Shown one piece after another: positions 1-32,496 of a DNA stretch of 38,658 nt. Source of the DNA: a virus; IMG/VR virus record IMGVR_UViG_3300025617_000052, positions 1 to 38,658 of that record; one strand, given 5' to 3'. Each line of letters starts with the position of its first letter. Within the stretch, counting starts at the first letter, position 1. A program made the position numbers and the translations under genes. The notes beneath the pieces were generated by a model. The model was not told where the DNA came from. It saw only the letters and a program-made list of their open reading frames with translations, and searched no databases.

Positions 1-3000
1 TGCTACGAACTTTACCATTTCCTAATTTAGCACTTGCTCTTGCACTTGTGCCATCTTCAACAAGCGATCCTTCGATAATTACTTCTGGAGGTGTAATGTA
101 TCCGCTTCCTGGATTAGTAACTAAAATAGCTGTAATACGTCCGCGACCCATATATGCAATAGCTTCTGCACCTGTGCCGCCACCGCCAACTAATCTTACA
201 ACAGGACGTTCTACATATCCTTCGCCCGCATCTCCGATTACAATTTCAGTAACTTCAAATCCTAAATTATCTAACCAGTTCTTGCTAGGATATTGATTAA
301 CAATGTCCGAAGCAGCAACAATTTCTCCGTCAATAATTTTTACATCCTGAGGAATAATCTTGCCTTCAGTTTCGCTATAATAAGGAGGAAGATCAAAGTC
401 TGTTACAACTGTATTAGAGTTTTCAGTCTTTTCATATGAACTTACATATTCACGTATCTTAGTTCTGTATGGTTTTGCTTCTTCTACGTAGTCTTCGTAA
501 CTAGGCAAGCTATCGTTTTTAAATGTGATAGTCTGCTCTAGTTCACCTACGTTGTGTTTAGCTTTTACAAAACTTGTTTTAAATGCCCAGTCAACATTTG
601 GTTGTTCTGAGAATACATAACGTAGACTTGCAAAGAATAGTTTGTTGTATTCTTCTTCTAAATCGTTAATAAAGATATTATCACGAATAGTTTGAAGCAT
701 AATACGTAATTCTTGTACAGGCTGTACATCGTAAAATACTTTATCAAAAGATGTTCCGTCAAATCCAGCATTAGCTGTTAAACTATCGTAGATACTAGTG
801 CTAAACTGTATAGTACCATTTTCTCTGCCGATGGTATCATAATTAACAGTATAATCTGCGTTTGGTTGATTGTTAACCTTTTTCAGTAGTAACCAACCGC
901 CTGTACCAACATTTTTAATTTTAACAATATCACCTAGCGAGTCGTCAATTAATTGTAGTTCATAACTTTGATTAACTAAGTGATCAATAGCTGTTGTTTC
1001 ACTGTATCCTGTAGCGTACCAATCGATATAATCCCAATACAAGTTTACATCATATGCTTGACTTTCTGCACGGTTCCATTCAGATCCGTTCCAGCTGTAA
1101 ATACTCCAGCGTCCGTTAATAGTTGCATCAGCTTGTACAAGAGTTGCAAATCTACGAATAACCAGTCTTGCATTTTGACTGTAATTTTCGCCACTGTCTA
1201 AAATTTGTATACGAGTTATTTTACCTTCACTATCAATTTGTATGTCAAAGTCTGCGCCTTGACCTGATGGATCAACAATCTCGTAAGTAGGTACAGTTTT
1301 ATACCCTCTACCAGGATTAACAATATTTGCTTCTTGAATCTTACCGTCTACAATTAATAGGTCAATTTGCGGTTGCTCAACATTAGCAATACTTACAAAT
1401 CTTAGTTCTGCTTCAGTGTCAATAGTTTGATCCCATTCGCCGGTTAGTACTGACGGTGCAGGAGTGCTTTGTGTTAACGGACTAATATCATATTCTTCAG
1501 CAATTAGATTTTTCTCTAGTACACCGTTAACACGCTCAAACAATTGTTTAAGTGCTTCGAAACGATTTACAAACCAGCTCTGTCTTGGATTATTTAGATT
1601 ACCGTAACGCTGCTTAGGCGATAGGTTTGGATCAGGTACAAACCTATCCTGTCTGTCATAACCTACTAAACTGTCAAACCATTTTTGTTCTACAACACTG
1701 TTTGGTTTACTTGTTGCTAGACCGTCACTTACAATTTGATATTCGCTGTGAATATTTTGTTCTTGGTTTTCAATAGTCCAGAAACGGAAGTTAATTGCAA
1801 CGTCATTGCCTCTAATTAAACTTTCACAGTTATAAATTGCAAATCTGTTGTTGCCTAATAGAGCAACAAATTTGTGTCCTTGATTTTCTGGATTTTGTAT
1901 AAACTGTTTAACTTCAAATGCACTAATAGTTCTTGTAGGAAGATTAGGCACAGTCTTTTTGTTAGCAACCCAGAAGTAATAGTAAGTTGTGAACGTTCCA
2001 CTAGCACTGTCGTACTCTCTACTAGTAGAGTAAGCGTTATTACCGTACTTACTAGTACCACTAATGCCTTTGGTTAATCCGTTTTCAGTATCAGCTTTGG
2101 CATCCCATTCGCTAGGTGTTAGTGTAGTCTTAACCCATTCGTATACTTCAATAGTGTTGTTTTCGAACAGTTGACTAAACTTGTTAACACTAGTAACAAT
2201 ATCACCTTGATAAGGATTAATAAATTTTGCACTGTCAATGTCCCACCAAACTTTACCAACAAACTTTTCAGCTGTGTGTGCTAGTTCGTCTACGTTTACG
2301 TTTAGTGTAGAATCTGCATCTTTAAATGAGTATACAGCCGGATCATAACTAGTCTTAAATGATATTTCTTGTTCAGCAGGTCCAGCAATCTTACCTTGTA
2401 TAGGATCAATATAATCCAAGTAAGAAATAATTTCTTGATCTTTAGTATCGTATAAGAATACACCATTAATCTTGCTAACGTCTACAGGGTCAATCGGTTG
2501 CTTATAGAACGTCCACGATCTAGCTGTTGTGCCTTTTCTAAAGTTAACAACCGAACCAGTACCTTCTGCAATATCTAATCTAGGAATACTTACATAAACA
2601 TGATTGTTTGATACCAATACTTGATCATCAAAGTATTCGCTATTAATAGCATAATTGTAATCTTTTGCAAAGATATATTTGTCGCCTATAAGCTCATATA
2701 TAGACACTGTTCCGCTAGCACCTGTGCCTCTTGACACTATAGCAAGTGTTTCGTTACCAAAATTTACTTTCTTTCCGAAACCTGTGTTGACAGTTCTAAG
2801 TCTGCCATAGAGCGTTTGTGATAATACAAACTCACCGTTTGTCTGTGTATAAATGTATACTGCACCGTTGTTACTTGCTACATCATCGTTGGTACTTGCA
2901 GAAACTGCAATAGTTTTACCGTCATTACTAATTGATATATTTTCAGCATAGGATTCGTCTGCAGATGTTAACGACTCAATTGCTTGACTAAACACATATC

Positions 3001-6000
3001 TGTCGTTTAACTTTCTGTAAACTAGAACTTGCGGAGCTTGTTGATTGTATTCTGCTGTTGTAATTAATACTCCGCCGTCTTGGCTTGCATCAAAAGATTC
3101 GCCAAACGCTGTAAGATCTTGTTGTCCAAGTACACTGTCATCAAAACCAAAAGTTTCTGTTACTGGAATATATCCTAATATGTCTGCTCTGTTTTCTAGT
3201 TCTGTCCAGAACATACTATTCCAAGAATTAGCACCCAAGTTTGTGTTAGCACTGTAGAGTTTACCATTAAACTCTACAATATCTTCTTCAGCGTAAGGTA
3301 TGCTATTATCAAACTCGCCGCGATATGCAGGATCTATACCAAGTTTCCAAACACCGTCGCCTGAATTTTTAATTATATAAATTTTACCAGACTCAACTGT
3401 ACTGTCATTTGCATTTTTTGCACCGGCTGCAAGTATAAATGCAGTATATGCATCGCCATCTTTTACAATCTTAATGTCTGTACCTAGTTGTGCTCCATTA
3501 TCAGCATCATTAACACTATAATACCCATTTAGAATGTATCTATCAGAATCGTCACGTTCGTAAATTGCATAAGCGCCTTCATAAATTAAGCCGCTTGCGT
3601 CTCTGCCGGCAGTAACCGGAATATTAAATACCTGTTTCCAGTCTAGGTTAAACGTTTCTGGGTCAGCTACTGCTCGCTCAATGCCTGCTTTAGCTTCCGT
3701 TACATAGACATAATACTCATAGTTCTCAATAAAGTTAAACTGACCTACAGGAATTTCTTCATTTTTCTCAATAACAACTAGTTTGCCAGCAACATCATTA
3801 TCTAATTTATTATCAAGAATGTCACCGATTAAGCGAACCGTACTATCTGTTTCTGCAAATGATGCTCTACCAATATCGTCGTTATTAATACCTAGCGCCC
3901 AGCCGTCTGTTGCGTTTCTTACAAAAATTCTTGCTCTGTCAAACAGTCGAATAACAAATGCAACCGTTGCACTTGCATCGCCGTCTGGATCAACTAGCGG
4001 ATCCCCAACTTCCGGAATGTAAGGATTACCGTAGTTTGGATTATAATCAATATCATCTGGGTTAGGAGAGCCAACTGTATCAAAGTTAGTGTAGCGAACT
4101 TCGAGCCATCCATCCCAAATATCTGTAATTTGGTGTAGATTGTTATTTAGGTAATCCCAAGGAAGACCGATTGCTTCTGGGTCTTGAACTTCGCCTAGTG
4201 GTGTAGTTCTTAAAGTATTAAACCAAAGTTTAAAATTGTCGCCTGCACTAAAATCTGTACTTTCAACAGGTAGTCTAAGAATCCAGTTAAGGCTTAGACG
4301 CTCAATTTCAGTTTGGCCTTCAATGTAACTCAAAGACTCAATATAACTAATTTCTGTTACATTGTCATCAGTATCGTTTTGTACATTATTATAAATGTTA
4401 TAATACGGTAATGTAGTATATGTAACTTCTTCAGATTTTGCAATATAGCGTACTACAAGATTTGCATTAGTTTCTGCTACAACGTTGCTATTAAATGAAG
4501 TTCCGACATTAATATACCAGAAGTTTTCAAAATCGTTGTACTTTTCGTTTCTAGGGAATACACGCTCGTATTCGCCAATTAATACATTGCCGTTTGCATT
4601 AAAGATTTCACCTGTTTCGTCAATTGAACCGTTAATATTGTTGACATAGATAATTGTTCTGTTGTCGTCAGTTGTATATCTGTACACAACTGTTGCACGG
4701 CCAGTAACTGTTGTTACTATATCGTCAACTTCAGGAATAGATTGCGTACTATCAACTCTAAGTACATCTTCAACTTTAGCGATAATTTCATGTTCGCCGT
4801 CGATAAAGTTTTTAGTTATAACACTGTGTGACTGGAATGGCAAGTAACCGTTTGGTTGTAGCCATGTATACTCATTCCATTCTAGTACTAGTTTGTCACC
4901 TATTTTAGTTGACTCGAACTGAGAACTATTAGCTCTAATCAATAAGTGATCAGTAGCGTCTTGCTCAAAACTATAGTTGCCGCGTACAATGTATTCTACA
5001 TCTGGATAATTTGTTCCAGTATATAAGTCTTCTTTAACAAATACATTTGAGTCAAAAGTATTAAGTGTTGTAATTTCTTGTGGTTCAATTGACTTATTTG
5101 CCTGCCATAACTGTCCTTTATAATTTACAACACTACCTTGAGGTACGCCAACATCTTTTAGATCGTCCCAGTTGCCTTTATAACTAGATCTAACGTTTGT
5201 AGCATAAGGTGCACCGACAATGATATACTCGCCGTCCGGTGATACTGCAACACCTTCGCCAAAGCGACTTTCAAAATCAAACAACGTGCCAGTTTCTTCA
5301 AACTTTTGCGATAAAGTAAAGTTACTTACTTCGTTAGCACGAGTAAAGATGTTAAGTGAGCCAATCTCGTCTGGACTTTGACTTATTTCTCCGGGCTGTC
5401 CTACTACTAACACTTGGTTATTTGATGTAACATCAACGCTAGTACCAAATAGATCAGGACCTTCTGAGTTTGTTAGTGTATTAGTAACACTGTAAACATC
5501 GTTATTTTCTAGTGTAACCCAACGATTATTACCAATATCATCAATCCAAAGTTTATCTTTGTTTTGTAGAGACACTTCGTTAATTTTGTTGTTAACTTCG
5601 TCAACTGAGCTTAGTCTAACTGTAGCCAGTTTAACAAGTGTTGCACTAATATCTTCTTGATTTCCGCCACTAGCTTCGATAGTAATAATATCATTTACAA
5701 ACGATAGTACCTTGTAATAGCCGTCTTGTTTATTTGCATTTCTTAAACCAATATAATCGCCAGCAGTTACATTAGGATTAATATCAACTTGTAGTGCTAA
5801 TCCTTCTAGTACTTGCTCTATGTTAACTACACGCACATTTGTATCAAGCACTTTGTATACGTTCCAAGATCTTCCTTCTGATGCTACCCAAATATAATCG
5901 TTGGCAACAGTAGTAGAAATATCTAAGTTAAGAATATCAGTAAATTTGTCAACTGCATGTTCTACGTCATCTCGGTCAACGTATCCAGCAGTTTGCAAGA

Positions 6001-9000
6001 ACCCTTCAGTAAAGTATGTTGTAGGGAAAGGTTTATGATCGTAATTTTTAGTTTTTAAGTATACATCATTTCGTGTTAGATTTAATACCAAACTGACATC
6101 ATTAGGATCTACTCGCTCTACTAGTTCTACAGGCTGAGGACTTAGTCTGTAATCTTCTTCTGGAATAATTACTTCAAACTCATCAAAGCCACTGTTAGCA
6201 CCATATTGTCCTAGTCTAATAGCCCATTCTTCGTAGAACTCTAAACTGTCTTTGCTTGCACTACCTAGTTTGTCAAACAATTTAGTAAGTGCATTTTGTG
6301 TTCCTTTGTCACGAATAAAACCTTGATAGAACTTGTATTGACTTGTGCTGTCAGGAATAATATTTTCTAAATATTTTCTTGCTTGATAGCCAATAAAGTG
6401 TTGTGCAAGTTTTTGTTGTTCAGTATCAAAGTTATTAGTTTCTAGGCTATAGAAATCTGTAAACTGGTTAGCTTTGTAATCAAAGTTTGCCAACAGTTGA
6501 CTTTCTGGCTTAGAACTTAGTCTATTCCATTGTTCGTCAATGAATGTTTCTGTACCTGTAATTGACTGATTAGCAGCATAAAAGAATTGCTTATACTTAA
6601 CTAAGTCACCGATTGTATATGCTTGCCAAGGTTGCCACGCTGTTACCTGTGCTTCATCATATATAAATCCAGGAATGTTTAATCCGCCATTCCAGTCATC
6701 TGAACGATAGCCAAGAGCACGAATTCTTTCTTGACGGTATCCGCTAGCCTTGTCATAAATTACATCACCAAACACTGTTTGATTGTCAATTACAACAACA
6801 TGTTCTCTTTGTACAACAGGAATCTTAACATGATAAATGCCTTCTGTTGTATTACGAACTTTAAGTCCAAAAGAATTTGTTTTATCGCGTACTGTATTAC
6901 CAAACTCAGTAACCAGTTTCTTGCCGTCTGCTTTTAATAAGCTGTAGTCAAAGAAGTTATCAAATATATCGTCAACTACTGCATAGTCCTTTTCAAACTT
7001 TAAGAAGTTAGCAGCAGGGCTTAAACTAATAACTGTTCCTGCCTTCCAGTTTTGTAGTGTCCAGAACATGAACTCTCTTGCGCTCAATGCCCAGTTTTCG
7101 ATATTTTCTAGATCTTTATTGAAGTTATCAAATACAAACCCTATACTTTCTAAATACTTTCCATAACCTATTAAAAAGTCAACTACTTCTTGTATGCTTC
7201 TGTAGGTTGTACCGTAAGGAACAGTTGATATTGTAGTAGCAAAGTTTTTACGGAATTGTGCAGTGGCGCCGCCTACTAGAGGAAGTTCAGGCATTTTTTG
7301 GAAATTGTCTGTGTTAAATTCGGTAGAGCTGCTATGGGTTGTTTTTACTCTATAAAATTCGTTGTTGAATCTTACAAGTTGTCCTTGTGCATAACGTTTG
7401 TTTTCGTCCCAATCTAAAAACGATTCTGTTACTCCTCCAACCCTTACTAGAGGATCGTTATTAAACTCAACTGGCTTGTATATTTTAAATTCAGGCGATG
7501 TTTTGTCATACCCTTTTACGATAAAGCCTTGTGCTTGTTTTTCAATAATTACACCACTATAAGAATACAAGTCAATCGGTGTACTTGTGTTTAGTATAAT
7601 TTGATAGTTTTCATCTGGAACAAAAATGTTGCCTTCATTTAGTGGCGTTCTACTGTCTAATATTAGGCGTAGTTTTTCTTTTGCACCAAACCCTGCTAGT
7701 TTAAATCCTAGTTGATTAGACAAACTAGTTAATGTGTTTTTGTACTGTTCGTACATCAACCCAGTGTTGTCTGTTAGCAGTCCTTGCATATAGTTTACAA
7801 GACCTGCTGTGTATACTCTGCCTTCACCTGTGGTAATTGCAGGGAAAACAACATCATTTAGGGACAAGCGTTTGTTAGTAGTTGAGTAAACTAGTTCGTC
7901 TGCACTATTTCTTATAATTCTGCTTCTGTCGTATGCAAGTCCAAATACTTTTGCAGGTTGATTTACTAACCATGCAACAATTACAGAAAATGCATGTTCA
8001 CTGCTTCTTCTCCATGCTGTTTCAATAGGACCTTCGTCTCCGAAACGCATGCTGTCTTTTTGTGTTGTGGTCAAAAACTTTTGTGCAACACTTGATTCAT
8101 CTGGTGATAATAATTTACCTTCTGAATCTACAGGAATATAATTCATTAGATCAGTGTGCTTGTACTTGTTATCGTATCTAGGGTTGTTAGGATCACGAAT
8201 GTATCCGTTTTGAATATCTTCCCAAATTCTAAAATTATCTTTGGTGTATGGAGCAGATCCGTATTCATCGTCCCACCATGCAGGTTTAACCGTAAAGCCT
8301 AGGCATTCCCAAGGCATTGTGTGAGGACGATCAGTTCCGTAATAGTCTTTGTAGATTGCTCTCCAATAACCCGGAATAGCTTGACCATTTGGAAATGCTC
8401 CTGTGTAATAGTTCCAAGTAAACGAGTTTAATCCGTCATACCCTGCATTTTGAGTGTAGTCAACACTACCAACTGTTGTTAACCAGTCATTAAAGTCAAC
8501 AATCATACTAGGTGCAATTGAGAAACGATCAAATCCAGTAGGTCTGTCAACAGTGTTAATAAAATCGTTTACATCAAATACATCTGGATTGTATTCAATT
8601 TTAATATTGTTGTAGATTCTTAATTCTAGATCTAAAATTAAATCATCTCTAAAGTCTTGGTATGCTCGTGTAAGACTTCCGTCGTGCCCTTGTATCATAG
8701 GAACAAACTCGGGATACATATCAATTGACGTATTATCCTGTGCAACTTTTTCTAAAGAGTTAGTTGGAGCAAACAGTATTGTCGGTGAACCATCAAACAT
8801 TAGTGCTGTAACTTCACCTTGAGAGTCAGCTGCGCTTGCTGCTGCTTCAGTTGTATATAAAGGATAAAAATATCCTGTTTGTGGTGCTAGTTTTGCATCT
8901 ACTGCTGTATCAAGATTACCGTATACTTTGTATGCAACATCTTCTTGCGCAGTACCTGATTGGTATGTATCGTCTTGAATAAGTTTTGGAATATACTTGT

Positions 9001-11947
9001 TCCACATTCCTAGTTTTGTAGGTGTTGGCGGAATCCAGCATCCGTCTGTTGATTCGTACTCAAAGACTTCTACAGTGTCGCCAGGCTCAGAATATGCAAG
9101 AATTTCAATGAAGCTGTTTTCATTAAACACATAATCTCTAGCATGTGTTAGCTGACGCCCGTTTAGGTATACTAAAAATGCACGTTCTGTAAGCTGTGTT
9201 AGATCAAACTGTGAGCTGATTGGAAAGAAATTGTTGTCGGTGTCAAACACTTCATATGTAAACTTTTCAAAGCCACCAAACGGAACCATGTCTGAAAAGT
9301 AAAACGGATCCTTTTCAGTTTTAGGACTAGTTAGCTCAAGTAATACTTTGTCTACAAATTGTTTAGTAGTACCATCGAAGCCTGATCCGTCAGCAGTTTG
9401 TAAAAATGCTCTTTTAAACTTAGAATATTCTGTTTTAGCATGTCTTACTGCTTTAACAACGTCAAATTCTTTTTGTGTAAAGTGCAAGATTGGAAGATTA
9501 ATAGATCCACTGTGCTGTACAAAACGAGTACCGTAAGGTGAAATATCGCCTAGGTCACGTAGATTGCTAACACCTGGATATTTACCTGCGTAATCTTCTA
9601 AGTTTTCAACAATGCTGTTTACATGGTCAATTACTTGTCCAAGTGTAAAATCAGTAACATTTTCGTTTTGTGGATTATTCTGTAGATTTACAGGAAACTC
9701 ATAAAACCCCTTTTCAGTTTTAGCAGCACTACTTTGTGTTTTGATAACAATTTTATCATCAGTTGTTAAGTTGTTTTCAAATCTAACAAGTGATTTTTGA
9801 TTTATTCTATTAACTTCGTAGTCGGTATTTTCTAGTAGTTTGTTGTTGTTTAGATATACTTCAATTTTTAAATCGTTTAAGTCGCCGCTGTTTTCATAAA
9901 CATCAACAGGAAAATTATTTCTAATTTCTACTGTGTTATACTGACGTGTAACTTTTTGTACAGACTGACCTGCTTTGGTCCATGGACTAACTGTTTCAAA
10001 ATCTGTTAAGCTGTTGTACACTCTTAGTAGAGCACTATCGGTTGTTGCTGTTAGTACGTCTGTTAGATTTTGGAATGTAAATGTATCAGTTTGGATATTA
10101 AAGTCAAAGATAATATCGCCACTGTTTTCAATACTTCTGTAGGATAATGGAAATCCTAATTCTGTATCATCAGCACCGGTACCTTCTCTATAAGAGAAAA
10201 GTTTAGTGCCTGCAAATGTGCTGCTTTCTAATTCGCTTAGACTGTTTCCAGCAACACCAAACAAGTCAAATCGCGGATGCTGATTAAAGTCTGTTTTTTC
10301 TTGTGCAACTGCCCACTGTGTTCCGTTGTAGTAAAAGATCTTGCCGCCATATGTACTACCGTCTTTTACAAAAACAGTTTCGTTTGTTTGTGGCTGTGTA
10401 TCGTCAACTTCTACTAGTGCAATCTGTGTTTCTTGTGTTGCTGTTGCAGGTCCGCTATGATTAATAAACTTAACTTCAAAAATTCTACCGTTAACTAGAA
10501 TGTCTTCGTCTGCTGCAAATAGCACACGCATTCCTTGCACTAAATCAACACCGTCTACGTTGTAACCAATACTTCCTTCTACAGTAGAAAATACATCTTT
10601 AGTTTTTAAATCAATTAAGTCTACTGCTTGCTTTGCGCTTGTACCAAAGTTAAATAGTTTAAGACCTGCACGATATTCAATAATAGGTCTTGTTGCACGA
10701 TAGTTTTGATCAATATCTGCAGGCGTTCCGTTGACCAGTGCCGACGTTTCAATTACACTACGGTGCGTCCATTGATTGTAACGAGACCAGTAATTGCTGT
10801 CAGGTGCAGCTCTATTGATTACAATATAATCTTTAACGTCTGAGTATCCTTTAGCATCATCAAAAGGAAGTTTATCAAACGGATTTGCATCAAATTCAAT
10901 TTCTTCGTCGCCAATGTAATCACCGGTAATTTCTAGATCAGTTTCTGAAATTAGTTTAATTGACGTGCCGACGCCTTCAACATACCATGCACCTTGTGCA
11001 TATTTTTCAGGTGTAACATCACCACGAAATTCTACCTTCATACCGTTTGACAAAGCATATCCGTTTGTCATAGTATAAGATGATTTTCCTAAAATTTCTC
11101 TGTCTACATCAATAGAAGAATTTTCTTCTGCATCACGAATAATAATTAAACCGTGAATTCTTTCATCGTTGTCGTTAGTATAAAACAGTCTGTCCGGTGC
11201 AGTTAGAGGAACTTCAAATTTAATTGTTCCTTGATCAACTGAGTTAGCCGACAGGCCAACTGAATACAATGTATCATCTTGTAATACTGTGTTAAATCTA
11301 ATACTGAATGGCATATCAGGCGTATCAATGTCAAACACATACTTCTGTCCTCTGTACAGTGTAAGTGTTTCGTTGACTACTGTATTTTCTTCTCTAAAAC
11401 CGTAAGCAACGTTATCTACATTGTCAACAGGACGTACTCTAAACTCAGATTCAATGTCACGAAGCTCGCCTATTACAGCAATACTATCAGGACCGTTTGG
11501 CATCCAGTAGTATTCACGGAAGTTAACAAACTTATCCCAGTCAATGTGTGGTTCCCAAGCATAGTATTCTTGAGTGTTAAGCAAACTGTGATCAGCAACA
11601 TTTCCGTTTCTAATCTTTACACCGTTAATAAAATCAATGTAGTCAGAATAAACATCAACGTTGCCGATTGCATCTCTGTGTACCACAGCAGGTTCGAACT
11701 GATAGTTTTCTCTTTCTGCACTTACATCAGTAATATAGTTGTCTAAATTTTTAAATGCTTTAGAATCTTTACGTCCAAAGTATCCATCAATCTTTTCAAC
11801 TACGCCTGGATTGATTAGTTGATCTAAAGTAGAGGATAAAAATTTCTCGTTAGCTACTGTTCTAAAATACTTAGGTAGAAACTGAGAACTTTTTCTATTC
11901 TTATTTGCATCCTTACCAAGTGGGATATTGTTTTCATCTTGGCTCAT
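1..11947 (-). CDS. Giant baseplate/tail structural protein, C-terminus cut by window edge
   Basis: One open frame runs without a stop from the ATG at 11947 (MSQDENNIPLGKD) through 3982 codons to the left edge, so the protein is larger still. It starts 2 bases after the gp6 stop, the slot of T4 gene 7 (a wedge protein of about 1030 residues) and of the vrlC-type structural genes of marine T4-like phages. Recognisable parts in order: four short aromatic modules like chitin-binding CBM5/12 (about residues 1508-1553, 1768-1810, 2258-2296, 2873-2917); FG-GAP-like beta-propeller blades in two blocks (about 2145-2252 and 2918-3120); and glycine-rich GxGY...P repeats near the end (about 3526-3605 and 3895 onward). 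No signal peptide or membrane segment is evident. I infer a virion baseplate or side-fibre protein that may touch host glycans. The exact T4 homologue is uncertain; the coding call is secure. Confidence 0.9.
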   Translation of the reverse strand, partial: MSQDENNIPLGKDANKNRKSSQFLPKYFRTVANEKFLSSTLDQLINPGVVEKIDGYFGRKDSKAFKNLDNYITDVSAERENYQFEPAVVHRDAIGNVDVYSDYIDFINGVKIRNGNVADHSLLNTQEYYAWEPHIDWDKFVNFREYYWMPNGPDSIAVIGELRDIESEFRVRPVDNVDNVAYGFREENTVVNETLTLYRGQKYVFDIDTPDMPFSIRFNTVLQDDTLYSVGLSANSVDQGTIKFEVPLTAPDRLFYTNDNDERIHGLIIIRDAEENSSIDVDREILGKSSYTMTNGYALSNGMKVEFRGDVTPEKYAQGAWYVEGVGTSIKLISETDLEITGDYIGDEEIEFDANPFDKLPFDDAKGYSDVKDYIVINRAAPDSNYWSRYNQWTHRSVIETSALVNGTPADIDQNYRATRPIIEYRAGLKLFNFGTSAKQAVDLIDLKTKDVFSTVEGSIGYNVDGVDLVQGMRVLFAADEDILVNGRIFEVKFINHSGPATATQETQIALVEVDDTQPQTNETVFVKDGSTYGGKIFYYNGTQWAVAQEKTDFNQHPRFDLFGVAGNSLSELESSTFAGTKLFSYREGTGADDTELGFPLSYRSIENSGDIIFDFNIQTDTFTFQNLTDVLTATTDSALLRVYNSLTDFETVSPWTKAGQSVQKVTRQYNTVEIRNNFPVDVYENSGDLNDLKIEVYLNNNKLLENTDYEVNRINQKSLVRFENNLTTDDKIVIKTQSSAAKTEKGFYEFPVNLQNNPQNENVTDFTLGQVIDHVNSIVENLEDYAGKYPGVSNLRDLGDISPYGTRFVQHSGSINLPILHFTQKEFDVVKAVRHAKTEYSKFKRAFLQTADGSGFDGTTKQFVDKVLLELTSPKTEKDPFYFSDMVPFGGFEKFTYEVFDTDNNFFPISSQFDLTQLTERAFLVYLNGRQLTHARDYVFNENSFIEILAYSEPGDTVEVFEYESTDGCWIPPTPTKLGMWNKYIPKLIQDDTYQSGTAQEDVAYKVYGNLDTAVDAKLAPQTGYFYPLYTTEAAASAADSQGEVTALMFDGSPTILFAPTNSLEKVAQDNTSIDMYPEFVPMIQGHDGSLTRAYQDFRDDLILDLELRIYNNIKIEYNPDVFDVNDFINTVDRPTGFDRFSIAPSMIVDFNDWLTTVGSVDYTQNAGYDGLNSFTWNYYTGAFPNGQAIPGYWRAIYKDYYGTDRPHTMPWECLGFTVKPAWWDDEYGSAPYTKDNFRIWEDIQNGYIRDPNNPRYDNKYKHTDLMNYIPVDSEGKLLSPDESSVAQKFLTTTQKDSMRFGDEGPIETAWRRSSEHAFSVIVAWLVNQPAKVFGLAYDRSRIIRNSADELVYSTTNKRLSLNDVVFPAITTGEGRVYTAGLVNYMQGLLTDNTGLMYEQYKNTLTSLSNQLGFKLAGFGAKEKLRLILDSRTPLNEGNIFVPDENYQIILNTSTPIDLYSYSGVIIEKQAQGFIVKGYDKTSPEFKIYKPVEFNNDPLVRVGGVTESFLDWDENKRYAQGQLVRFNNEFYRVKTTHSSSTEFNTDNFQKMPELPLVGGATAQFRKNFATTISTVPYGTTYRSIQEVVDFLIGYGKYLESIGFVFDNFNKDLENIENWALSAREFMFWTLQNWKAGTVISLSPAANFLKFEKDYAVVDDIFDNFFDYSLLKADGKKLVTEFGNTVRDKTNSFGLKVRNTTEGIYHVKIPVVQREHVVVIDNQTVFGDVIYDKASGYRQERIRALGYRSDDWNGGLNIPGFIYDEAQVTAWQPWQAYTIGDLVKYKQFFYAANQSITGTETFIDEQWNRLSSKPESQLLANFDYKANQFTDFYSLETNNFDTEQQKLAQHFIGYQARKYLENIIPDSTSQYKFYQGFIRDKGTQNALTKLFDKLGSASKDSLEFYEEWAIRLGQYGANSGFDEFEVIIPEEDYRLSPQPVELVERVDPNDVSLVLNLTRNDVYLKTKNYDHKPFPTTYFTEGFLQTAGYVDRDDVEHAVDKFTDILNLDISTTVANDYIWVASEGRSWNVYKVLDTNVRVVNIEQVLEGLALQVDINPNVTAGDYIGLRNANKQDGYYKVLSFVNDIITIEASGGNQEDISATLVKLATVRLSSVDEVNNKINEVSLQNKDKLWIDDIGNNRWVTLENNDVYSVTNTLTNSEGPDLFGTSVDVTSNNQVLVVGQPGEISQSPDEIGSLNIFTRANEVSNFTLSQKFEETGTLFDFESRFGEGVAVSPDGEYIIVGAPYATNVRSSYKGNWDDLKDVGVPQGSVVNYKGQLWQANKSIEPQEITTLNTFDSNVFVKEDLYTGTNYPDVEYIVRGNYSFEQDATDHLLIRANSSQFESTKIGDKLVLEWNEYTWLQPNGYLPFQSHSVITKNFIDGEHEIIAKVEDVLRVDSTQSIPEVDDIVTTVTGRATVVYRYTTDDNRTIIYVNNINGSIDETGEIFNANGNVLIGEYERVFPRNEKYNDFENFWYINVGTSFNSNVVAETNANLVVRYIAKSEEVTYTTLPYYNIYNNVQNDTDDNVTEISYIESLSYIEGQTEIERLSLNWILRLPVESTDFSAGDNFKLWFNTLRTTPLGEVQDPEAIGLPWDYLNNNLHQITDIWDGWLEVRYTNFDTVGSPNPDDIDYNPNYGNPYIPEVGDPLVDPDGDASATVAFVIRLFDRARIFVRNATDGWALGINNDDIGRASFAETDSTVRLIGDILDNKLDNDVAGKLVVIEKNEEIPVGQFNFIENYEYYVYVTEAKAGIERAVADPETFNLDWKQVFNIPVTAGRDASGLIYEGAYAIYERDDSDRYILNGYYSVNDADNGAQLGTDIKIVKDGDAYTAFILAAGAKNANDSTVESGKIYIIKNSGDGVWKLGIDPAYRGEFDNSIPYAEEDIVEFNGKLYSANTNLGANSWNSMFWTELENRADILGYIPVTETFGFDDSVLGQQDLTAFGESFDASQDGGVLITTAEYNQQAPQVLVYRKLNDRYVFSQAIESLTSADESYAENISISNDGKTIAVSASTNDDVASNNGAVYIYTQTNGEFVLSQTLYGRLRTVNTGFGKKVNFGNETLAIVSRGTGASGTVSIYELIGDKYIFAKDYNYAINSEYFDDQVLVSNNHVYVSIPRLDIAEGTGSVVNFRKGTTARSWTFYKQPIDPVDVSKINGVFLYDTKDQEIISYLDYIDPIQGKIAGPAEQEISFKTSYDPAVYSFKDADSTLNVNVDELAHTAEKFVGKVWWDIDSAKFINPYQGDIVTSVNKFSQLFENNTIEVYEWVKTTLTPSEWDAKADTENGLTKGISGTSKYGNNAYSTSREYDSASGTFTTYYYFWVANKKTVPNLPTRTISAFEVKQFIQNPENQGHKFVALLGNNRFAIYNCESLIRGNDVAINFRFWTIENQEQNIHSEYQIVSDGLATSKPNSVVEQKWFDSLVGYDRQDRFVPDPNLSPKQRYGNLNNPRQSWFVNRFEALKQLFERVNGVLEKNLIAEEYDISPLTQSTPAPSVLTGEWDQTIDTEAELRFVSIANVEQPQIDLLIVDGKIQEANIVNPGRGYKTVPTYEIVDPSGQGADFDIQIDSEGKITRIQILDSGENYSQNARLVIRRFATLVQADATINGRWSIYSWNGSEWNRAESQAYDVNLYWDYIDWYATGYSETTAIDHLVNQSYELQLIDDSLGDIVKIKNVGTGGWLLLKKVNNQPNADYTVNYDTIGRENGTIQFSTSIYDSLTANAGFDGTSFDKVFYDVQPVQELRIMLQTIRDNIFINDLEEEYNKLFFASLRYVFSEQPNVDWAFKTSFVKAKHNVGELEQTITFKNDSLPSYEDYVEEAKPYRTKIREYVSSYEKTENSNTVVTDFDLPPYYSETEGKIIPQDVKIIDGEIVAASDIVNQYPSKNWLDNLGFEVTEIVIGDAGEGYVERPVVRLVGGGGTGAEAIAYMGRGRITAILVTNPGSGYITPPEVIIEGSLVEDGTSARASAKLGNGKVRS

Positions 11948-23611: not shown

Positions 23612-24445
23612 TTGAGAAAACAAAATTATTTAAATAACAAAGACATACTAGCAGAAATTCATAAATCTAAGAATACTTTTTGTAGTTATGTTGAACCGGA
23701 ATACAATCGATACGATATTATTTTGCCTAGTATAGATAAGATTAATCGTCTTACTATTGCAGAAGCAAAGCGCAACAAAGCAAAAAGACTTAGTCAAGCA
23801 GCATACGAACAGGCAAAGGCCGAAAAGAAACGTGTTAAGCAAGCTGACTGCGAAGTTCCTTACACATCTATTACCAAAGAAGAACTAATATTCCGTGTAA
23901 TGACATTTGACCACATTCCAGAAGAACCAGGTCGTAAAAAGAATCCAAAAACAGTAGCAGACACGAAAGTAAAACTAAACTTTCCTCCGTTTGTACACTA
24001 CAAGTTTAACGAAAACGACGAACTTGTTCTTGTAGGTAAATCACACTGGGAAGGCGGAATGGACAACGGTCACTTTAACAGAGACCACGGGCAGGCTACA
24101 AACAAACTTGCACTAATGTGGATGAAGTTGTGTGATCGTTATGCAACAAGAGGAAACGTTCGTGGATATACATACAACGACGAAATGCGAGGACAAGCAA
24201 TCCTGCAACTTGCTCAAATTGGTTTGCAGTTTGATGAATCAAAGTCTAACAATCCGTTCGCTTACTACACTGCGGCGGTTACTAACTCGTTTGTAAGAGT
24301 TATTAATATAGAAAAACGCAATCAAAACATTCGAGACGATATTTTAGAAATGAACGATCTTGATCCTAGTTATACTAGACAGCATGCAGGCGAGTGGGAA
24401 GCATCAGTCAAGCGAGACCAAGAAGCGCGGAAGAACGGAAACTAA
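23612..24445 (+). CDS. gp55: Late-transcription sigma factor gp55
   Basis: The protein has 277 residues (T4 gp55 has 185). gp55 replaces the host sigma factor and directs RNA polymerase to the TATAAATA-type late promoters. The sigma region 2-like core is at about residues 145-240: HWEGGMDNGHFNRDHGQATN, then GYTYNDEMRGQAILQLAQIG, FDESKSNNPFAYYTAAVTN and SFVRVINIEKRNQNIRDDIL, a typical gp55 pattern in marine T4-like phages. The first 100 residues are a basic, Lys-rich extension. The start is TTG, chosen because AGGAG lies 6 bases before it and the frame is open from there. The tail ends in hydrophilic residues, so the hydrophobic sliding-clamp-binding end of T4 gp55 is not evident. Divergent from the baseplate operon it should activate. 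Confidence 0.87.
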   Translation: MRKQNYLNNKDILAEIHKSKNTFCSYVEPEYNRYDIILPSIDKINRLTIAEAKRNKAKRLSQAAYEQAKAEKKRVKQADCEVPYTSITKEELIFRVMTFDHIPEEPGRKKNPKTVADTKVKLNFPPFVHYKFNENDELVLVGKSHWEGGMDNGHFNRDHGQATNKLALMWMKLCDRYATRGNVRGYTYNDEMRGQAILQLAQIGLQFDESKSNNPFAYYTAAVTNSFVRVINIEKRNQNIRDDILEMNDLDPSYTRQHAGEWEASVKRDQEARKNGN

Positions 24446-27521: not shown

Positions 27522-27971
27522 ATGGAGTGGACTTATCAAGGCAAAGTAATAGAAACAATACCAGACGAATATGAAGGCTTTGTTTATCTCATTACCAATC
27601 TAACTACTGGGCAAAAATATATAGGCAAAAAACTTGCAAAATTTAAAACTACCAAACCTCCACTCAAAGGCAAGAAAAATAAACGCAGAGGCAGCAAAGA
27701 AAGCGATTGGAAAACCTATTGGGGTTCATCCGATAGACTAAACGCCGACGTTGCGGCACTAGGCCCAGAAAACTTCACAAGAGAAATCCTATACCTATGT
27801 AAAGGCAGGGGCGAAATGTCCTATATCGAGGCAAGAGAGCAATTTGACCGCCGTGTATTAGAGAGCGACGAGTATTACAATGGAATTATTAATGTTAGAG
27901 TTGGCGGTTCCGATAAATTGCGACAGGCATTGCTAGAACATAGCATCAAGGCAAAACAATCCAACACATAA
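27522..27971 (+). CDS. GIY-YIG-like endonuclease
   Basis: The protein has 149 residues. The N-terminus carries a recognisable variant of the GIY-YIG motif: GFVYLI (residues 19-24) and KYIGKK (32-37), followed by a Lys-rich loop and DWKTYWGSS (about 66-74), a block shared with T4 Seg-type nucleases. A later Glu in YIEAREQF may be the metal ligand, and NGIINVRVGG resembles the end of the fold. The C-terminus has no obvious second DNA-binding domain, so it may be a stand-alone nicking enzyme or a degenerate homing nuclease. It is followed by a long non-coding, hairpin-rich stretch. No intron is evident around it. Confidence 0.68.
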   Translation: MEWTYQGKVIETIPDEYEGFVYLITNLTTGQKYIGKKLAKFKTTKPPLKGKKNKRRGSKESDWKTYWGSSDRLNADVAALGPENFTREILYLCKGRGEMSYIEAREQFDRRVLESDEYYNGIINVRVGGSDKLRQALLEHSIKAKQSNT

Positions 27972-29124: not shown

Positions 29125-29355
29125 TTAGAAAAACGGCAAATTAGTATCTTTTGTCGTTTTTAAGTTTTCTTCTATTAATTTTGTTAAAATTTCTCTATCT
29201 TCAAAACCTAGTGCATATGCTTCGTCGAGAGTCATTCCGCCTCTCATAAACCATGAAAGTTTAAATGTATCGTGTTTTATCTGTTTTACATCTGTGTCAA
29301 GGATCTTAACTTCTTCTAAGATTTCGTCAATAGAGAGCGTTAAGATCCTGAGCCG
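29125..29355 (-). CDS. gp51-like -1 frame extension of gp26
   Basis: A 76-codon open frame continues after gp26 in the -1 frame and ends at 29125. The conserved-looking part reads KLSWFMRGGMTLDEAYALG then EDREILTKLIEENLKTT, like the small gp51/tail-assembly-chaperone segments of T4-like marine phages. It has no ATG, GTG or TTG before the Met inside WFMRGG, near codon 40, so it has no credible start of its own. It is open back to the slippery run AAATTTTTTC in the last codons of gp26, so expression as a gp26 fusion of about 357 residues is the simplest reading. It lies opposite the tape measure gene, where phages usually place frameshifted tail chaperones. The name gp51 is inferred; T4 gp51 itself is larger (about 249 residues). 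Confidence 0.65.
   Translation of the reverse strand, partial: RLRILTLSIDEILEEVKILDTDVKQIKHDTFKLSWFMRGGMTLDEAYALGFEDREILTKLIEENLKTTKDTNLPFF
29129..29161. terminator. Bidirectional intrinsic terminator between convergent genes
   Basis: The arms AAAAACGGCAAA (29129-29140) and TTTGTCGTTTTT (29150-29161) form a 12-bp stem with one G-T wobble and a 9-base loop. On the plus strand the stem ends in a T-rich run, and on the minus strand it ends in TTTTTCTAAT. It sits between the convergent stops of the 28525 gene and the gp51-like frame, inside the end of the latter. Confidence 0.65.
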
Positions 29356-30197
29356 AAAAAATTTGCACTGTCAAACGATAACGGAACATCAAATGTTTCT
29401 GGTGCACCGTTTTCGATGTCCTCTGGAGTAGAATTAATTGTTAGAGGTTTTGCTACAAACTTCTTACGTTGTTCATCGATATGATCAGTTAACGCTCTAA
29501 ACAAATCTTTGTCTGCATTATTAACAAACTCGTCAATATGTTTTTTGTTAGTAACAACTTCTTCATCAATTTCGATAGACTCAATTGATTTTTCTAAGTT
29601 AGAAACTGTAATTTCAGTTAGTTTTCTAAAACTTTCTTGGAATACACGAACTTTTTCACCATCTGAAATTTTTTCATCGTTTAACACTCTAAAAATACGT
29701 TGTTCTTCAAATGTTTTAATAGCAGTATCAGTAAACTCTTTGTAAGAAATAGGTCTTAAATGAATAATCATTCCATTAACTTCAACAGTTGATATAAACT
29801 CTTGACCAATAAATCCATCTAAAATCTGACGTAGATCAAGAGCAAATGATTGTTCAGTACCGGTAACTGGAGTTTTAGATGCAAAGTCCATTTTTTCGCC
29901 ATAGCTTGCAATCCTCATTGCAACTAAAATTGTATCTAAATCAATAATAGGAAGTTTCCAAGCGTCTTTAATATTAGGCATACAGCTTTGAATAATATCA
30001 ACGGTAGACTGGCCATTTAACAACGCATCTGGTGTTTTAATCATAATCTCGTCTTTGGCTGTCATAGAAAAAACTGGTAACTCACCGTTTTCAGGCATTT
30101 CGATTGAACCTTCAGGCCAAAATTTACCTCCTGAAGGTAATTTGATATAGATTTTAGGCTGTCTAAAAAATTTCTTAAGTGGATTATTATCCGACAT
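29340..30197 (-). CDS. gp26: Baseplate hub assembly protein gp26 (T4_baseplate family)
   Basis: The protein has 285 residues (T4 gp26 has 208). Family features: an N-terminal YIKLPSGGKFWPEGSIEMP, a MTAKDEIMIKTPDALLNGQS block, VAMRIASYGEKMDF, and a C-terminal acidic helical region. This is the T4 gp26 family needed for hub assembly around the tape measure. The start at 30197 has AGGAGC at good spacing and a TATAAATA element further upstream. It is transcribed against its neighbours, an isolated leftward gene. The last codons contain AAATTTTTTC, which reads as two overlapping in-frame slippery heptamers, so a fraction of ribosomes may continue into the gp51-like frame. Confidence 0.85.
   Translation of the reverse strand: MSDNNPLKKFFRQPKIYIKLPSGGKFWPEGSIEMPENGELPVFSMTAKDEIMIKTPDALLNGQSTVDIIQSCMPNIKDAWKLPIIDLDTILVAMRIASYGEKMDFASKTPVTGTEQSFALDLRQILDGFIGQEFISTVEVNGMIIHLRPISYKEFTDTAIKTFEEQRIFRVLNDEKISDGEKVRVFQESFRKLTEITVSNLEKSIESIEIDEEVVTNKKHIDEFVNNADKDLFRALTDHIDEQRKKFVAKPLTINSTPEDIENGAPETFDVPLSFDSANFFGSGS
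29355..29364 (-). promoter_or_regulatory. Candidate -1 frameshift slippery site in gp26
   Basis: Leftward the bases are A AAT TTT TTC in the gp26 frame. Both A AAT TTT and T TTT TTC fit the X XXY YYZ rule for -1 slippage. The gp26 stop follows four codons later, and the -1 frame stays open for 76 codons. Confidence 0.65.
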
Positions 30198-30209
30198 GTT
30201 TATGCTCCT

Positions 30210-30241: not shown

Positions 30242-30249
30242 TATTTATA
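30242..30249 (-). promoter_or_regulatory. Consensus T4 late promoter element for gp26
   Basis: Read leftward this is TATAAATA, an exact match to the T4 late consensus. A start near 30236 gives a 39-base leader containing AGGAGC before the gp26 ATG. Confidence 0.65.
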
Positions 30250-30276: not shown

Positions 30277-32496
30277 GTGGCTGAAGAAATCGAAATCAAG
30301 AACGTCGGCGGTAAAGGAGTTGCAAGTGAAGCAACTCTTAAGAGATTGCAAGAAGCAATGACTGCTATGGCACGACAGATGGGTGCTTCTAATGATCAAA
30401 ATTCTAAAGCATTTGATGCATATAAAAAATCACTTACTCTTGCAACAGATAAGCAAAGAAAAAATACCGAAGCTGTTGACGAAAATACCGAAGCTGTAGA
30501 ATCTAATACAAGCGCACTTGGTAGTATTGCTGGCGCCTTAGGCGGCGCACTTATGTCTGGTATTACTAGTGTTGCTGGTAGTATGTTTGGACTTGGAAAA
30601 GAACTATTAGTTGGCGGAGACAAACTATCTGATTTTACTCGACATGTTCCGTTAGTTGGAGGAGTTCTTACAGGTGTTGTAGGTTATTTTGAAGAGTTAA
30701 CTGACACCTTCCAAGGACTGAGCAGTCAAGGTGCATCATTTAATAATAGTATAATTGAAATGAGAACATCTGCTTTAGAAGCAGGTTTAAACTTTACTAG
30801 ATATACTGAACTAATATCTCAGAACAGTGATCGTTTAACTTTCTTTGGCGGAACAGTTACACAAGGTGCTCAACAACTAGGAAGATTTAGTAAAGAGTTT
30901 AGAACAAGCGGTGTTGGTCGTAACTTAGCCGCGATGGGCTTTACTGTTGAAGAACTAAATGAAGGCTTGTTAGATTTTGCTCAATTAGAAGCTCGAGTTA
31001 CTGGACAAAGAATTAGAGACGAACAGCAATTAATAGACGGCACAGCTAGTTATTTAAAAGAGCTTGATCAATTAGCAAAACTTACAGGTACAAGTCGTAG
31101 ACAACAAGCAGACCTAATGGCACAACAAGCGGCAGAAGCAAATGTTGCTGCAAGAATGGCTAATATGTCTGACGAAGAACGAATTAGATTTCAAGGCAAT
31201 TTAAATGCTGTTTCAACTTTGCTTCCAGGGTTCAGCAATGCATTTAAAGATTTAACTGACGGGATTCCACAAACTGAACTAGGCGAAAGATTATATTCCA
31301 TGGTTCCTGAGTTTGCAAGATTAGCTGAAAATGCTGAAAACTTGTCTTTAGAAGAACTAGACGAAGGTTTAAGAAGAGTTGCTCCGCAGCTAACAGAATT
31401 TAGAGATAGTATGGGCGCTGCTGCTGTTACAGCAATAGGTGATCAAGATGCGGGCTTCGCAGCACTATTTGGAGCAATGTATCAGTTTGAAGAGTATATG
31501 GCTAGAGCTTTTGATCCGGAAGCTGCTGCCGAAGAAGCAGCGAAACGAGAACTAATAACAACTGGTTTAACAAACATGTCTACTGAGGTCGAAAGAATCA
31601 GGAGTGATATATTATTAAAGTTCTTTGAAGAAGGTGGTGTTGGTGCAAGAGTACAATCATTTTTAGAAAGTGTTACAGAGGAAGACATTAATGCATTTAG
31701 TACTACCTTAAACACATTTATGGATTCTTTTAATGCAGATCCTGGACAAGCAATTTCAGATTTATACAAAAACATAATGGACTATCTGTTCGGATATGTT
31801 GAAGAAGGCGGTCCTGGAAATATGTACGAGCGTCGAGTTGGCGGAGTGCTTGAACCTATGCTTGAAAGTATCACAAACAGCCTCAAAGAAGGATTTACAT
31901 CACTACTTAACAATCCTGAATTAAGACAAGTGTTAAGTGATTCATTTAGAAGTTTACTAAGAGGTATAAATAATTCTGGCTTTATTGGAGATATGATGGT
32001 CGATGACGATCTATTATTATCAGATAATGAAAGACAGCTAAATTCTCAAATTGAAGCTCTGCAAAATCGAATTAGAGAAGCTGAATTAGATCGCGGCTAT
32101 GCTAGTAGTTATGGTTATGACGCATCAACTTCGGCAGAAGAACTTCAGCGTATGAGAGACGAACTTGCTAATCTTCAAGCACAAATTCCAACAAGACTTG
32201 TTGGTACTTACGGTGCTACTGGTCGACTAACAGAACCTAGAAACACTATTGCACGAATACACGCAGGAGAACGAGTTCTAAATCCTCAAGAAGCAGCTGA
32301 ATATAATAATTCGACTACTAGCAGTGATACAAGTTCAGCAACTACTGCTGTTGCAAGCTCTCAACAACAAGTCTCAGAAAGTATTAATAGGTTAAATACT
32401 ACAATGAGATCAATGGTTACTATGATGCAAGAAAATAACAAACTGACAAAACAAACAGTAAATGCAATTGCTGAATCAGGCAATATGATAGGTTAA
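30277..32496 (+). CDS. Tail tape measure protein (gp29 role)
   Basis: The protein has 739 residues (T4 gp29 has 590). It looks like a tape measure: helical and coiled through most of its length, with a hydrophobic Gly/Ala-rich stretch at about residues 80-115 (GSIAGALGGALMSGITSVAG), a Gln/Ala-rich middle, a coiled coil near 590-640 and a C-terminal NTIARIHAGERVLNPQEAAEYN motif seen at the ends of many tape measure proteins. It sets tail length and travels with the DNA during injection. The start is GTG at 30277, with TAGGA about 10 bases upstream; the sequence from MAEEIEIKNVGGKG is the only well-placed option. Beside it lie gp26 and the gp51-like extension, its likely chaperones, and the portal gene follows 5 bases later. 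Confidence 0.75.
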   Translation: MAEEIEIKNVGGKGVASEATLKRLQEAMTAMARQMGASNDQNSKAFDAYKKSLTLATDKQRKNTEAVDENTEAVESNTSALGSIAGALGGALMSGITSVAGSMFGLGKELLVGGDKLSDFTRHVPLVGGVLTGVVGYFEELTDTFQGLSSQGASFNNSIIEMRTSALEAGLNFTRYTELISQNSDRLTFFGGTVTQGAQQLGRFSKEFRTSGVGRNLAAMGFTVEELNEGLLDFAQLEARVTGQRIRDEQQLIDGTASYLKELDQLAKLTGTSRRQQADLMAQQAAEANVAARMANMSDEERIRFQGNLNAVSTLLPGFSNAFKDLTDGIPQTELGERLYSMVPEFARLAENAENLSLEELDEGLRRVAPQLTEFRDSMGAAAVTAIGDQDAGFAALFGAMYQFEEYMARAFDPEAAAEEAAKRELITTGLTNMSTEVERIRSDILLKFFEEGGVGARVQSFLESVTEEDINAFSTTLNTFMDSFNADPGQAISDLYKNIMDYLFGYVEEGGPGNMYERRVGGVLEPMLESITNSLKEGFTSLLNNPELRQVLSDSFRSLLRGINNSGFIGDMMVDDDLLLSDNERQLNSQIEALQNRIREAELDRGYASSYGYDASTSAEELQRMRDELANLQAQIPTRLVGTYGATGRLTEPRNTIARIHAGERVLNPQEAAEYNNSTTSSDTSSATTAVASSQQQVSESINRLNTTMRSMVTMMQENNKLTKQTVNAIAESGNMIG

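Follow-up and report, generated by a model that had tools for sequence, protein, structure and literature searches.

The window, i.e. the whole stretch of DNA analysed here, comprises 38,658 nt (positions 1 to 38,658 of the IMG/VR virus record IMGVR_UViG_3300025617_000052) and carries on its minus strand a gene of the T4_baseplate family, gp26, whose 3' end overlaps a second open frame. The family assignment was obtained with Pfam PF12322 (E 3e-12, 47.1 bits, the curated cut-off being 24.5), and gp26 also matches PHROG 150, baseplate hub (E 1.7e-17). A sequence search with the gp26 profile against PDB chains gave no match. The features of the locus are as follows.

30277..32496, plus strand: probable tape measure protein gene, divergent neighbour of gp26
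30242..30249, minus strand: TATAAATA, possible T4-type late promoter of gp26, weak
30205..30209, minus strand: Shine-Dalgarno-like AGGAG of gp26
29340..30197, minus strand: gp26, 285 aa, predicted short form (TAC-N, lambda gpG-like)
29358..29364, minus strand: overlapping heptamer A_AAT_TTT in the X_XXY_YYZ register, not conserved
29355..29361, minus strand: slippery heptamer T_TTT_TTC in the X_XXY_YYZ register, conserved
29340..29342, minus strand: zero-frame stop TAA of gp26
29125..29355, minus strand: -1 frame extension, 76 codons plus stop, putative TAC-C (lambda T-like), apparently homologous to the gp51 C-terminus (selection, alignments, hhalign, model)

The string TATAAATA was rejected as a late promoter, as its frequency in the window is not above chance (3 copies, 4 expected). 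A late sigma factor gene is found at 23612-24445, and together with SbcCD-like recombination genes, the portal and the prohead protease it marks a T4-like virion region. An uninterrupted minus-strand frame (2-11947) of at least 3,982 codons runs off the window end and adjoins baseplate wedge genes; it is perhaps a giant tail-fibre or adhesin gene. A free-standing SegE-type GIY-YIG endonuclease (27522-27971, plus strand; PF19835, E 1.4e-35) sits between the gp46-like gene and the gp26 region.

A tape measure is the probable product of the gene at 30277-32496. Several homologues in this position match tape-measure families of PHROG (phrog_58 with E 1.8e-16, phrog_167 with 2.5e-12, and others) and the RaK2 counterpart is annotated as similar to tape measure, while the window's own product had no match to these families. 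The length of this gene varies widely across relatives, mostly between 688 and 1245 aa. Pfam gave nothing useful on 31 homologues, and direct comparison with T4 gp29 as a way to its identity was dropped after giving no match. Note that the first-pass annotation had placed gp26 beside the tape measure: a probable tape measure does adjoin it, as judged from the homologues, but it lies on the opposite strand, unlike in lambda. In one relative (locus L019, 3676-5871) about 2.2 kb separate the tape-measure-like frame from gp26, as against less than 110 bases at the other loci; the extra DNA may be an insertion or a broken gene.

The slippery heptamer and the -1 frame

The zero frame of gp26 ends with the codons GCA AAT TTT TTC GGC TCA GGA TCT TAA, and the minus strand reads AAATTTTTTC at 29364-29355. 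Relatives were collected by one gp26 scan of IMG/VR, which gave 80 loci (2 of them copies of the window's own sequence), and with 4 GenBank jumbo-phage loci added, 66 distinct junctions were available. The first-pass annotation had described two overlapping in-frame slippery heptamers just before the end of gp26. Both are present in register; however, alignment of the gp26 ends upholds only one of them. NNT TTT TTC precedes the stop in 66/66 distinct relatives with a readable junction, so that a non-slippery junction was found in none, and the -1 frame is open in all. The codon before TTT TTC is variable (AAT 53, AGT 7, CAT 3, GAT 2, GCT 1), therefore the conserved unit is T_TTT_TTC. A_AAT_TTT is incidental and was rejected as a second functional heptamer.

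The conservation of the site was also evaluated at the codon level, using 44 representatives with less than 90% identity. The two slippery Phe codons are TTT in 44/44 and TTC in 44/44, whereas the share of TTT in four other conserved Phe columns is 74-85%. They are the only invariant columns among 58 conserved ones, for which the median share of the major codon is 0.57. Part of the constraint on the final C of TTC is explained by the -1 frame, where this base begins an Arg codon; this in turn points to translation of both frames. Between the slippery TTC and the gp26 stop there are 3 sense codons in the window and exactly 1 in 62/66 relatives. The zero-frame stop one codon after TTC is often followed by a second in-frame stop soon after, and this arrangement is possibly part of the signal.

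After the two Phe codons the -1 frame begins RLRILTLSIDEILEEVKILDTDVKQIKHDTFKLSWFMRGG, reads FF-RLRILTLSIDEILEEVKILDTDVKQIKHDTFKLSWFMRGGMTLDEAYALGFEDREILTKLIEENLKTTKDTNLPFF-stop over 76 codons and stops at 29127-29125, so the predicted fusion has 281 + 76 = 357 residues. A segment of this kind is rarely open by chance, since only 0.12% of composition-preserving shuffles remain open over 76 codons. The extension is exactly 76 codons long in 61/64 complete relatives and open in all. The mean number of stops is 0, as compared with 7.4 and 7.2 in the other frames, and a pN/pS of 0.22 (1.4 and 2.1 in the other frames) indicates that purifying selection acts on the -1 frame. The SWFMRGG block, which the first-pass annotation had regarded as conserved-looking, has invariant W, R and G in 41 sequences; the 76 open codons and the lack of a usable start were likewise borne out. 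In the window, the -1 frame has no ATG before that of MRGG, which lies at about its 37th codon, and GTG and TTG are likewise absent up to there. Searches of Pfam and PHROGs with the 76-aa extension alone gave no match.

Alternatively, the -1 frame could be a gp51-like gene in its own right, with ribosomes re-initiating past the gp26 stop or using a rare start codon. It is annotated as such in P-SSM2, KVP40, 121Q and Phosso, an AAGGA-like string follows the slip site in many relatives, and the junction codon is ATG in 7/66. We consider this improbable. The junction codon takes its first base from the end of the codon before and the other two, TA or TG, from the gp26 stop; an ATG there simply reflects a TGA stop, and in 55 relatives the codon is ATA, GTA or CTA. 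Normal start codons in relatives, which the first-pass annotation had named as evidence against its proposal, are thus encountered in a superficial sense only. Moreover, ATG, GTG or TTG is found at no conserved place: the stretch from the last -1 stop to the slip site lacks any of the three in 66/66, and in 38/66 they are also missing from the 18 codons that follow the slip. In the alignments the conserved part of the -1 frame starts at FFR, inside gp26 and upstream of any ATG. An independent gene would also leave the invariance of TTT TTC and the RNA stem (see below) unexplained.

A putative RNA stem after the heptamer

Folding of the window suggests that a frameshift at this site may be assisted by an 11-bp stem formed by the following two arms (z -2.9).

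29339..29349, minus strand: putative stem 5' arm AGGAUCUUAAC, 5 nt after the heptamer (folding, synonymous-recoding test)
29300..29310, minus strand: putative stem 3' arm GUUAAGAUCCU; 11 bp with a 28-nt loop (p 0.007 against synonymous recoding)

The stem starts 5-6 nt after the heptamer, and in many relatives the 5' arm is at about the same distance. Elements that stimulate -1 frameshifting usually lie about 5-9 nt downstream, though a site can do without one. The relatives differ in the 3' arm, whose end falls near +43-46, +59-63 or +80-83, counted from the heptamer start. The null distribution was generated by keeping the 5' arm and replacing every codon after it by a synonymous one drawn according to the codon usage of the genome concerned, a design chosen because it separates RNA pairing from protein constraint. 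The stem exceeded this null at p<0.05 in 17/27 representatives with less than 70% identity, with a Fisher p of 9e-16, and a repetition of the test at the junction gave a mean z of 2.0 and a Fisher p of 3.8e-13; these p values are to be read with the restriction that Fisher's method treats related sequences as independent. The same test gave no signal at 13 control positions, nine in gp26 and four in the extension.

The pairing was also followed through the alignments. In a fixed +61 register 88% of the cells are paired and two-sided changes number 9 versus 2.5 in shuffles, in a subset that was picked because its members have that stem. In the wider sequence set, 22 stem cells are changed on both sides versus 11.4 in shuffles. 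The near stem is 76.6% paired in its alignment register. We note that in many relatives the same 5' arm can pair with either of two 3' arms (alignment columns 13-22/35-44 and 13-23/52-62), and alternative hairpins on a shared arm could compete or switch.

Among 12 named phages (listed in the next section) the stem test was passed by P-SSM2 only. S-PM2, Aeh1 and KVP40 show low folding energy (p 0.017-0.03), and the RaK2-like phages gave no stem signal in the folding and recoding test. The stem is thus undetectable in most named jumbo and T4-like phages and, as far as their sequences tell, cannot be a universal requirement. In the open-licence papers searched we found no earlier report of the stem or of the membership of this uncultured clade.

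The shift could in principle occur in transcription, with the RNA polymerase slipping on the T6 run and producing some transcripts in the shifted frame. The site is a six-T run and is preceded by A's in many relatives, yet six T are short for bacterial transcriptional slippage, which needs about 8-9 T, and apart from HTVC008M no relative compared here has a lengthened run. Since the register of the heptamer and the ribosomal spacing of the stem both indicate a shift by the ribosome, we regard polymerase slippage as very unlikely. Finally, a gene split in a single contig by a frameshift mutation or a sequencing error, which could look alike in a lone sequence and would make the -1 frame a relic, can practically be dismissed: this junction recurs in isolates and in each of the 66 distinct relatives, drawn from many metagenomes, and purifying selection acts on the -1 frame.

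Named phages and the relation to gp51

The site and the -1 domain recur in P-SSM2, Syn9, S-PM2, HTVC008M, KVP40, Aeh1, PhiW-14, GAP32, RaK2, XbC2, Kaldavass and Munch. In these 12 named phages gp26 ends in T_TTT_TTC, the variant in HTVC008M being T_TTT_TTT directly before the TAA stop, and the -1 domain has 57-71 residues after FF. The -1 piece is annotated as a short 'gp51' (the -1 frame is the annotated gp51 in P-SSM2 and KVP40), as a hypothetical protein, or not at all. In T4, gp26 and gp51 both belong to PF12322 and gp51 carries an extra C-terminal part; the two genes are separate, divergently transcribed paralogues. Frameshifting is said to be kept in several T4-like groups, with T4 using separate genes.

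The extension was compared with gp51 C-termini using hhalign. With jumbo-phage sequences as a bridge the probability was 94.8% (E 5.5e-8), and without this bridge 68% (E 4.8e-5). This is good evidence that the extension is homologous to the C-terminus of gp51, as far as a short domain can support it. Cyanophage gp51 has been described as strongly reduced, with about 20% of the usual length and without the first ~200 residues, and gp51 as missing in Aeh1 (Sullivan et al. 2010, PMC3037559). In Aeh1, reading gp26 in the -1 frame reveals the domain reported as missing. A -1 reading would most simply explain both the short cyanophage gp51, whose N-terminal part would be gp26, and the 'missing' gp51 of Aeh1. 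The annotation of a core tail gene of very abundant phages would be corrected in this way, as the cyanophage 'baseplate hub catalyst gp51' would be the C-terminal half of a frameshift product.

Structure models were built from alignments of the window and the IMG/VR loci only. The extension is predicted to be all-helical, and the mean confidence of the gp26 and extension models is high (pLDDT 86 and 88, respectively). When searched against PDB structures, neither model gave a match with E below 0.001, and no solved chaperone was matched. The PA5oct homologue has no ESI-MS/MS tag while neighbouring virion proteins are tagged, which fits a chaperone that is absent from the virion.

Proposed mechanism and comparison with known systems

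We conclude that gp26 and a gp26-gp51 fusion are very probably produced by a -1 frameshift, as the short and long forms of a tail assembly chaperone of the lambda G/GT type. The arguments for this are the invariant slippery codons, selection on the -1 frame, the lack of a start for it in the window's own sequence, the putative stem, the homology to gp51 and the probable tape-measure neighbour. The site, the coding nature of the -1 frame, the lack of another start in the window and the stem rest on comparative sequence evidence, and from these we infer the slip itself, its efficiency and the chaperone role.

According to the proposed mechanism, the ribosome would slip by -1 at U_UUU_UUC in a fraction of the readings, probably helped by the RNA stem 5-6 nt downstream, so that one message would yield gp26 alone as the major product (TAC-N) and the 357-residue fusion as the minor one (TAC-NC). 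Following the lambda G/GT model, gp26 would coat the tape measure protein in many copies, a few copies of the fusion would recruit tail tube subunits via the gp51-like helical domain, and both would leave the finished tail. In T4 the same pair would be supplied by the two paralogous genes 26 and 51.

A broader reading, which we consider likely though with more reservation, is that, the T4 group apart, phages of the T4 superfamily encode gp26 and 'gp51' in a single gene expressed via a U_UUU_UUC frameshift. In the present clade the slip would be tuned by a stem with a constant 5' arm, 5-6 nt from the heptamer, and a 3' partner that would have moved among three places by lineage, and in T4 the 26/51 pair would have replaced frameshifting by gene duplication. 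This would be a case where frameshifting and gene duplication yield the same two products. T4 gp26 and gp51 are listed as hub assembly chaperones in a T4 review, and their roles in hub assembly have been disputed (PMC3004832); they now become testable as a tail assembly chaperone pair.

The frameshift itself is not new here. Vladimirov, Gautam and Davidson (2022) dealt with T4-like chaperone genes and are cited in PMC12846349 for poly-T -1 frameshift signals in TAC-N genes; as far as this citation goes, frameshifting in T4-like chaperone genes has already been proposed, and by our reading it concerns the same gene pair. The first-pass annotation had drawn the parallel to lambda G/GT in a T4-like phage, which the comparative tests support but which was thus not new. 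In the Vandenendeviridae and Andersonviridae (PMC12846349) a -1 shift likewise takes place at a T-run ending TAC-N and the -1 frame is conserved without stops. These are, however, other phage families, with a conserved GTTTTT and another heptamer context.

In lambda, gpG and gpGT act on the tape measure and the T part recruits the tail subunit; frameshift chaperones are described as widely conserved in long-tailed phages 'except T4' (Atkins et al. 2016, PMC5009743). As in lambda, the locus studied here would give a short and a long product with a common N-terminal part, the heptamer is near the end of the first frame, and a probable tape-measure gene adjoins. Unlike in lambda, the heptamer is T_TTT_TTC, the family is PF12322, the tape measure is divergent rather than downstream, and many members have a putative stem after the heptamer. 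T4 itself shares the family PF12322, and the C-terminal part of its gp51 resembles the extension. It differs in having two separate divergent genes and no frameshift, whereas here one gene is continued in the -1 frame.
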